Assembly: GCF_003258295.1 (NCBI RefSeq)
Contig: NZ_QKYN01000039.1
Span: forward strand, 1-64,000
Direction of reading: 5' to 3'
DNA length: 64,000 nt
Source of the DNA: Streptacidiphilus pinicola
Lineage (GTDB): Bacteria > Actinomycetota > Actinomycetes > Streptomycetales > Streptomycetaceae
This document shows positions 15,935-19,356 of the stretch, piece after piece. Below the pieces are notes generated by a model. That model was not told the origin of the DNA. It made no database searches and was given only the letters and a program-made list of their open reading frames with translations. How positions within the stretch are numbered: the stretch's first letter is position 1; the number at the start of each line of letters is the position of its first letter. The position numbers and the translations under genes are program-made.

Positions 15935-16504
15935 TCACTGGCAGTCGGCGTCGCCGCTCTGGGCCCTGACCTCGACGACCTGGCCGGGGCCGGAGAAGGG
16001 GACGTCGACCCAGGCCGGATTCGGGAGCTTGGTGGGGTTGATCCAGGCCTGCCAGTTGTGCCAGGTCAGCTCGTAGCCGTCGGACACGGGCGGCGCCTGG
16101 GTCCACCCGTCCTGGAGCAGTTCCTTGTGCAGCGTCTGCGCGAGGTCCGGCTCGACGCCCTCCGGGAGGTAGAAGGCGTAGCCCACCAGGCAGCCCGTGG
16201 GCGAGGCCGGGTACGCGGCGTCCTTCCGGCCGGATTCGGTGATCCCCGCCCGCTCCAGGGCCTGGTCCAGCTGCTGCCCGACCCGCCGGTACTCCGCCTG
16301 GCGCTGCGCCCCGGCGGCCAGCTGGGCCGCGTGGACGGCCGCGGCCGCCTTGCTCGCCGCCGCCGCGGACGCGCTCGCCGCCGAGGCGCTCGCCTCGGCC
16401 GGGGTGGGCCCGGAGTGGCCCGAGCATCCGGCGGCGAGTGCGATCACGGGCAGGCAGGAGAGCGCCACGGCGGCGCGGGAAAAGCGGAACATGACCGTCA
16501 GCAT
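15935..16504 (-). CDS. Putative secreted lipoprotein
   Basis: The 189-residue protein begins with a short positive segment and hydrophobic core ending in the lipobox LAAGC, with Cys27 the expected lipidated residue. An Ala/Ser-rich stretch of about 35 residues then links to a globular C-terminal domain with Trp- and Pro-rich segments such as ELTWHNWQAW and two cysteines. No known domain was recognised. AGGAG 10 bases before ATG 16504 supports the start; GTG 16525 is less likely. It follows the adhE remnant on the same strand. Confidence 0.75.
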   Translation of the reverse strand: MLTVMFRFSRAAVALSCLPVIALAAGCSGHSGPTPAEASASAASASAAAASKAAAAVHAAQLAAGAQRQAEYRRVGQQLDQALERAGITESGRKDAAYPASPTGCLVGYAFYLPEGVEPDLAQTLHKELLQDGWTQAPPVSDGYELTWHNWQAWINPTKLPNPAWVDVPFSGPGQVVEVRAQSGDADCQ

Positions 16505-16540
16505 AGGCGGGAAGCTCCTGGTCACCGCGGTGGGGTCGGT

Positions 16541-18136
16541 TCAGCGACCGTAGTAGGCCCGGGTCATCAGCCGCTTCATGCCGTCGATCATCGGCATCCG
16601 CGGGTTCGCGGGCGCGCACTGGTCGGCGTAGGCGTTGAGCGCCTGCTGCGGGAGGGCGGCCAGGAAGGCCTGCTCGTCGACGCCCTCGCCCTGGAAGGAG
16701 CGCGGGCTGCCGCAGCGGTCGCGCAGCTCCTCGACGGCCCTGGCGAAGGCCATGCCCGCGATGGTGGACGCGTTGTGCATCTTCTCGCGCGCCTCCGGGT
16801 CCTTGGCGCCGTCGGTGACGCAGCGCTCCAGGTTCTCGAAGATCAGGCGGATCACCTGCAGGCACTGGCCGTCGGTGAAGTCGCTGGCGTAGGCGGAGAC
16901 ATAGGCCTCCGTCGCGTGGGTCAGCGCGTCGAAGCCGGAGTCGGCGGTGACGGTCGGTGGCAGGTTCATCGGCAGCACCGGGTCGACGATCGCGACGGAC
17001 GGGGTCAGCGCGTAGTCGGCCAGCGGGTACTTCTGCGCGGCGGCCGGGTCGGAGATGACCGCGAACGGGGTGACCTCGGAGCCGGTGCCCGAGGTGGTGG
17101 GGATCGCGACCAGCTGCGCCTTCTCACCCAACTGCGGGAAGGTGTAGGCGCGCTTGCGGATGTCGAAGAACTTCTCCTTGGTGTCCGCGAAGGCCACCTC
17201 GGGGTGCTCGTACATCAACCACATGATCTTCGCGGTGTCCATCGGCGAGCCGCCGCCCAGCGCGACGATGGTGTCGGGCTGGACGTCCCGCATCATCGCG
17301 GCGCCCTGGACCACCGTCTCCAGCTCGGGGTTGGGCTCGACATTGTCGATGACCTGAATGGCGACCGGCTCCTGACGGGCGTTCAGGATGTCGGTGACGC
17401 GCCGGACGATGCCGATCGCGCCCATGGTCTTGTCGGTGACCAGCGAGACGCGGTGGATTCCGTCCATCTCGCCCAGGTGGCGCAGCGAGTTGCGCTCGAA
17501 GTAGATCTTCGGCGGGACCGTGTGCCACTGCATGTTGGTGTTGCGTCGTCCTATCCGCCTGATGTTGAGCAGGTTGACCGCGGTGACGTTGTTCGACACC
17601 GAGTTGCGGCCGTAGGAGCCGCAGCCGAGGGTCAGCGAGGGCAGGAAGGCGTTGTAGACGTCGCCGATGCCGCCGAAGGTGGAGGGCGCGTTGACGATCA
17701 CCCGGACCGCCTTGACGGCCCGGCCGAACGCCTCGACCAGCGCCTCGTCCTCGGTGTGGATCGCGGCGGAGTGGCCCAGGCCGTCGAACTCGACCATCCG
17801 CGCGGACAGTTCGATGCCGTGCGCGGCATCGTCGGCGCGCAGCGCGGCCAGGATCGGCGAGAGCTTCTCACGGGTCAGCGGCTCGGCCGGGCCGACCTCG
17901 GCGCACTCGGCGCACTCGGCGAGCAGGATCGCGGTACCGTCCGGGACCTCGAAGCCCGCCTGCTCGGCGATCCACTGCGGCGACCGGCCGACCACCGCCG
18001 CGTTCAGCTTTGCGCCACCGCAGTTGGCGCCGCCCGCGGTGACGCCGAAGACGAACTCCTCCAGCTTGGCCTTCTCCGCCGCGCTCAGCACGCGGGCGCC
18101 CAGGCGGACGAACTCGGCGATGCCGGCCCGGCTCAG
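16541..18136 (-). pseudogene. adhE: Decayed adhE: 5'-truncated and internally deleted aldehyde-alcohol dehydrogenase
   Basis: The frame corresponds to the last part of the aldehyde dehydrogenase domain plus the iron alcohol dehydrogenase domain of AdhE (about 870-890 residues when complete). The N-terminal ~300 residues, including the catalytic Cys region, are absent: homology begins at the stop of the upstream MarR gene. GGGSPMDTAK (NAD site) and FDALTHATEAYVS (metal Asp and first His) are present. After TIAGMAFA (near 16742) the protein jumps in frame to the AdhE C-terminal segment ending DQCAPANPR...YYGR. This removes about 90 residues that carry the other two metal-binding histidines. The longest conventional frame starts at GTG 18091 (516 residues) without a ribosome site. 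It is probably inactive. Confidence 0.82.
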
Positions 18137-18627
18137 CCCAGCGGCGGCAGGGCCTGCTGGGCGTGCTGCCCCAGCTCGTCCAGGCCCTCGATGGTGGCGG
18201 CGAGTTGCTCCGGCTTGAGCACCTGGAAGACGTGCTCGTCGATCGCGCGGGCGTGCCGCTGGGCCGCCTCGGCGAGCTTGCTCTCGCCGAGCGGTGTGAT
18301 GGTGACGACCTGGATCCGGCGGTCGGTGCGGGAGCGCTCGCGCAGCACCAGTCCCGCCTCGACCATCCGGTCCACCAGGCGCGTGGCGCCGCCGCTGGTG
18401 AGGACGGCGTCACGGGAGAGGTCCCCCATGGTCGCGCCCTCGGGCACGGCGGCGAGCCGGAGCAGCACCTCGAACATCGCGTGCGAGATGCCGCTCTCGC
18501 GCTCCATGGCCGCGCCGAGCAGTCGCTCCAACCGTGCGGCCGCCGTCAGCAGGACCCCGAACGCCTGGACCCGTTCGTCGGCCACGGCGTCGGCGGCGGT
18601 CCGGATACTGATGCTGGCAGCGGTCAT
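18133..18627 (-). CDS. MarR-family transcriptional regulator
   Basis: The 164-residue protein has the MarR fold, with MFEVLLRLAAVPEGATMGDLS, a recognition helix in SGGATRLVDRMVEAGLV and the wing RERSRTDRRIQVVTIT. AAGGAG 7 bases before ATG 18627 sets the start. Its stop codon lies at the point where adhE homology begins, so a deletion may have joined the two genes. The target may be the NAD(P)H-binding gene just upstream; the ligand is unknown. Confidence 0.88.
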   Translation of the reverse strand: MTAASISIRTAADAVADERVQAFGVLLTAAARLERLLGAAMERESGISHAMFEVLLRLAAVPEGATMGDLSRDAVLTSGGATRLVDRMVEAGLVLRERSRTDRRIQVVTITPLGESKLAEAAQRHARAIDEHVFQVLKPEQLAATIEGLDELGQHAQQALPPLG

Positions 18628-18705
18628 CGTGCGGCTCCTTCCCCAGGGGATCGTGCACACGTTACCGCCCGTTCGTCACCGACTACCCTCCGGGGCGGTC
18701 GGCCG

Positions 18706-19356
18706 TTAGCGGCCGACCGTGAAGCGGCGGCCGAGGTGGGCCGGCTGCTCGATCTCGTCGACCAGCGCGACGGCGTAGTCCTCGGTGCTGATGTGGCTGT
18801 TGCCCTCGGCGTCGACCACCAGCTGTTCCAGGCCGGTGCGGTAGCTGCCGGTGCGCTCGCCGGGCTGGATCAGGGCGGCGGGGCTGAGCACGGTCCAGGT
18901 GACGTCGTCGACGGTGTTGTAGAACGCCTGGGCGTCGCCGTGGGCGTGCATGATCTGCAGCAGCCAGTCCGGCAGGCCCGGCGCGTCCCAGACCTTGACG
19001 CCGGGCGCGGTCTCCAGGCTGCCGGCGCCGCCGACGGCGATCAGGCGCGGGGCCGCCGAGCCCAGCCCACGCAGGCCCTGCACCAGCGACTGCGCGGCGG
19101 GCACCATCACCGCGGCGTGCCCCGGTCCGTCGCCCCCGCCGACGGCGCTGACCAGCACGTCCTGCCCGGTCGCGGCCTCGGCGACGGCGGCGGACTCCAG
19201 CACGTCACCGGCCACCACGGCGGTGACGCCCTCCGGCGCGCTGTACGTGGCGGGGTCCCGGACGACGGCGGTCACCTGGTGGCCCCGGGCGAGCGCCTCG
19301 GTGACGACCCGGGATCCGATGGCACCCTTGGCTCCGAGAACAGCGATCTTGGCCAT
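18706..19356 (-). CDS. NAD(P)H-binding atypical short-chain dehydrogenase
   Basis: The 216-residue single Rossmann-domain protein starts MAKIAVLGAKGAIGSRVV, with the glycine motif of NmrA-like/extended SDR proteins. The active-site region DVTWTVLSPAALI is typical of the YwnB/HSCARG-like group. It may be a redox sensor or oxidoreductase; the substrate is unknown. AAAGG before ATG 19356 supports the start. A palindrome lies 58 bases upstream, and a MarR gene follows on the same strand. Confidence 0.8.
   Translation of the reverse strand: MAKIAVLGAKGAIGSRVVTEALARGHQVTAVVRDPATYSAPEGVTAVVAGDVLESAAVAEAATGQDVLVSAVGGGDGPGHAAVMVPAAQSLVQGLRGLGSAAPRLIAVGGAGSLETAPGVKVWDAPGLPDWLLQIMHAHGDAQAFYNTVDDVTWTVLSPAALIQPGERTGSYRTGLEQLVVDAEGNSHISTEDYAVALVDEIEQPAHLGRRFTVGR

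Follow-up and report, generated by a model that had tools for sequence, protein, structure and literature searches.

In Escherichia coli AdhE, the bifunctional aldehyde-alcohol dehydrogenase, four residues bind the metal of the alcohol dehydrogenase (ADH) half, namely D653, H657, H723 and H737 (PMC7470043). The contacts of the E. coli spirosome include a dimerization element at residues 87–101, the linker 440–451 and AdhE-specific loops, among them 758–772 (PMC7080775), and F670 also holds the filament (PMC6778083). Partial adhE genes are documented in Lactobacillaceae, where fragments comprising only the aldehyde dehydrogenase (ALDH) domain retain the NAD site in conserved form and are considered useful (PMC11269746). 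A literature search on adhE pseudogenes in Streptomyces listed no relevant paper.

Here we analyze an adhE remnant in Streptacidiphilus pinicola, within a window of 64,000 nucleotides (contig NZ_QKYN01000039.1 of assembly GCF_003258295.1, positions 1 to 64,000, forward strand). The remnant has lost parts of both enzymatic halves, and we conclude that it is very probably a young pseudogene of adhE, broken only recently.

Two deletions in adhE behind a MarR-family gene

Between 18124 and 16541 on the minus strand, the window carries AdhE-coding sequence that lacks two pieces and contains no stop codon (Table 1). Its open reading frame (18091–16541, minus strand) begins at a GTG and is 516 codons long. 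Its similarity to AdhE falls into two blocks, separated by a gap at residue 452/453; in a phmmer search against the PDB, query residues 27–452 correspond to residues 290–717 of the E. coli chain and 453–516 to 802–865. The iron-ADH N-lobe (Pfam PF00465) is complete, and the best stretch of the C-terminal iron-ADH domain covers only the first 70 of its 194 positions. The remnant scores 717 bits for NF010378 against a cut-off of 951, which places it outside functional AdhE as defined by complete ALDH and Fe-ADH domains and a score above the cut-off (PRK13805/NF010378).

Table 1 Features of the adhE locus (coordinates in the window)
Feature	Position	Strand	Description
Small lipoprotein-like ORF, directly downstream of remnant	15935–16525	-	No Pfam match
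adhE remnant	16541–18128	-	G008 AdhE residues ~270–728 + 810–875; frame from GTG 18091
Deletion junction 2	16739–16748	-	243 bp missing in frame at 5-bp CGCCA microhomology
9-bp tandem duplication	17901–17918	-	GCCGAGTGC x2, +3 residues; private to source genome among fetched loci
Deletion junction 1	18124–18136	-	MarR stop (18133–18135), then AdhE residue ~270 within ~10 bases
MarR-family regulator, intact, directly upstream of remnant	18133–18660	-	Present in 14/14 genus genomes

An intact counterpart occupies the same place in a congener: in G008 the same MarR gene is immediately followed by a gene for a whole AdhE of 875 residues, whose DNA is 93% identical to the remnant over the shared part. 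Alignment to this protein, a comparison proposed in the first-pass annotation, delimited both deletions. On the 5′ side, about 0.93 kb is gone between the MarR stop codon and AdhE residue ~270, and AdhE homology begins at ~18124–18128, at most ~10 bases past that stop. This deletion took the 136-bp MarR–adhE spacer with its ribosome-binding site, the start codon and the first ~269 codons (G008 numbering; 265 if AdhE starts at ATG). The lost part includes residue 255 of G008, the catalytic cysteine of ALDH in GMICASEQ, which a functional AdhE requires. The bases at the MarR stop, TGAGCCG, are the same as in G010.

The internal deletion removed exactly 81 codons between G008 residues 728 and 810, including the residues that correspond to E. 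coli His723 and His737. Only two of the four metal ligands are left, the equivalents of Asp653 and His657, again short of a functional AdhE. A repeat of at least 5 bp arises in 2.3% of random 243-bp deletions placed in adhE; the CGCCA repeat agrees with a microhomology-mediated deletion without proving one. No long repeats were found at either junction.

The first-pass annotation had described an adhE remnant with two large deletions and an open frame, homology starting at the MarR stop, two metal-binding histidines lost and the C-terminal tail kept. All of this is borne out, the tail being the equivalent of G008 residues 810–875. Both losses are also real, the internal one in frame as described, and both are smaller than first estimated (~300 residues at the N terminus and ~90 internally).

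The short form is private to this genome. Full-length AdhE occurs in 5 of 14 Streptacidiphilus genomes, and neither a second AdhE nor the missing adhE parts were found elsewhere in the source assembly. Across 298 genomes of the family, 89 have an AdhE-like match, mostly of about 860–875 residues, and none of the others has the short form; among GTDB genomes, the best matches spanning the gap have lengths that include the missing segment. In three family genomes adhE is broken otherwise, by an in-frame stop plus a split (G150), a split frame (G214) or reduction to a short fragment (G243), which suggests repeated independent loss of adhE in the family. Another congener, G001, has a 47-residue stretch (L032:4695–4835, plus strand) that matches the AdhE C-terminal tail at 51% identity (E 2e-6) and is accompanied by no other AdhE part; it is possibly an older adhE relic.

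History of the locus

A pseudogene combines an intact counterpart in relatives with the loss of essential parts, and both are found at this locus. In the history we propose, a whole adhE would once have stood directly behind MarR in this lineage, as it still does in G008. The deletion that may have come first would have fused the MarR stop to adhE codon ~270, at the cost of the spacer, the ribosome-binding site, the start codon, the catalytic cysteine and most of the ALDH N-terminal part. The 81 codons, and with them two of the four ADH metal ligands, would have gone in a second deletion, for which slippage or end-joining at the CGCCA repeat is the probable mechanism; what is left would give no functional protein.

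The surrounding genes fit two histories, descent from a common ancestor with subsequent losses and transfer between relatives. adhE is absent from behind MarR in G003, G005, G010 and G012 and also in G007, where the order is MarR, lipoprotein-like gene, MFS. In the neighbour-gene tree, the window falls between a G008/G012/G003 group and a G005/G007/G010 group. The lipoprotein-like ORF evolves fast and, among the compared syntenic loci, was seen only in G007 (61% identity). Upstream, an NAD(P)H-binding (NmrA-like) gene (18706–19356, minus strand) adjoins MarR in five compared congeners and is missing in G008.

Alternatively, the fragment could have arrived ready-truncated from a G008-like relative, by illegitimate recombination between MarR and the lipoprotein gene, and never have been functional in this lineage. 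This origin, which we consider unlikely, would account for the several syntenic relatives without adhE here, G007 with its lipoprotein gene directly after MarR among them, and for homology to G008 that ends on one side with the stop codon of adhE and on the other near that of MarR. It would also suit the synonymous divergence (dS) of adhE from G008, 0.166, a lower value than for MarR (0.468), TrmO and MFS. However, the adhE value lies inside the range of the neighbouring genes (0.115–0.50), with ACAD at 0.115, MaoC at 0.125 and the VPS10-like gene at 0.212. The site is moreover shared, as adhE in G008 also follows this MarR gene directly, and the position of the window in the locus tree allows inheritance plus losses.

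Selection, start signals and predicted fold

We estimated selection on the retained part from a codon tree of 12 sequences, with close Streptomyces outgroups, under three codon models. On the branch leading to the window, ω was 0.048 against a background of 0.047, 0.144 against 0.175 and 0.084 against 0.082, and no raised ω was found on it with the three models; ω = 1 was rejected for the branch taken whole. Depending on the model, at most about 3% to 10% of the branch, at its terminal end, could have been neutral (limit taken at a drop of 1.92 in lnL). The retained part was thus under normal constraint over at least about 90–97% of the branch, which points to recent damage. Parsimony counts (27 synonymous and 21 nonsynonymous changes for the window versus 22 and 7 for G008) leaned towards a raised ω, but they included an outgroup row, G023, on the wrong strand and are superseded by the codon models. 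Three changes on the window branch, versus none in G008, affect sites invariant in the other compared AdhE sequences, a hint of some relaxation. Judged from the codons, the retained adhE either behaved as a functional gene until not long ago or is still under selection; the codon data alone fit both.

The 5′ end of the remnant offers no evident start. No Shine–Dalgarno match precedes GTG 18091, start codons near the 5′ end of the remnant have no good match, and other early in-frame starts have only weak or badly spaced ones. The sole well-placed GGAGG precedes ATG 16780, at codon 438, and in the intact adhE of G008 the ATG is preceded at 5 nt by GAGGTGA. A scan restricted to sigma-70-like promoters found none near the remnant, and no structured RNA was found at Rfam thresholds in 12–24 kb of the window.

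Three features count against a pseudogene: the 516-codon open frame, an internal deletion that is a multiple of three and a window-branch ω not above background, which a short protein still under selection would equally give. Such a protein could be translated and retained in a different function, for example as an NAD-binding or assembly subunit without catalytic activity, and the partial adhE genes retained in Lactobacillaceae (PMC11269746) would offer an analogy. An AlphaFold model, built on a moderate alignment of 32 sequences and taken as supporting evidence only, predicts the NAD-binding lobe (residues ~200–300) with confidence (pLDDT mostly 81–94). The model as a whole is poor (mean pLDDT 65, pTM 0.53), with region 128–190 at about 24–33 and the junction at 448–457 under 50. 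Retention for a new role nonetheless seems to us very unlikely: start signals are absent, the form is confined to this genome, and the Lactobacillaceae fragments retain an ALDH domain where here neither domain is whole. The linker sequence 440–451 and the F670 position are retained, but the spirosome elements 87–101 and 758–772, the latter an ALDH–ADH interface loop (PMC7080775), lie inside the deletions, and a role in spirosomes is not supported. A more specific version, in which the MarR-side fusion gives rise to a translated AdhE fragment that binds NAD, is catalytically dead and is selected as a regulatory or assembly partner, is highly improbable.

A private form with no start signals and neither active site favors recent loss over continued selection. 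An open frame is what a young pseudogene would be expected to have. Of the two explanations offered at first pass, recent loss thus gains support, from the intact copy that a congener has at this site, from the uniqueness of the form and from codon models that leave no more than a few percent of the branch neutral; retention for another role such as spirosome assembly is not supported, and the sharing of the short form by relatives that would have counted against the initial reading was not seen in the 298 family genomes.

That the assembler dropped two pieces of a gene whole in the reads is barely conceivable, even in a draft genome (8.43 Mb, 281 contigs), because the repeat at junction 2 is only 5 bp long, too short for assemblers normally to collapse on, and the missing parts are on no other contig; both junctions are also internal to a 68-kb contig.

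Comparison with known adhE genes

The locus very probably captures gene decay at an early stage: the gene carries two deletions, a congener still has it intact, and neutral drift has hardly begun. It illustrates that a long open frame alone is no proof of a living gene. Because adhE is patchy in the genus, the remnant fits a picture in which a fermentation enzyme is lost repeatedly. The finding is well supported and most likely represents ordinary bacterial genome decay.

Compared with the intact AdhE of Streptomyces and Streptacidiphilus (NF010378/PRK13805), the remnant is close to the G008 gene in DNA sequence and shares its place behind MarR, but lacks the ~269 N-terminal and 81 internal residues, and with them the catalytic cysteine and two metal ligands. 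The broken genes of G150, G214 and G243 likewise carry sporadic, genome-specific damage, although their lesions are different. The partial adhE genes of Apilactobacillus and other Lactobacillaceae (PMC11269746) resemble it as lineage-specific partial losses that leave an open fragment; whereas theirs keeps the ALDH domain, the remnant described here has lost both the ALDH N-terminal part and ADH metal ligands.
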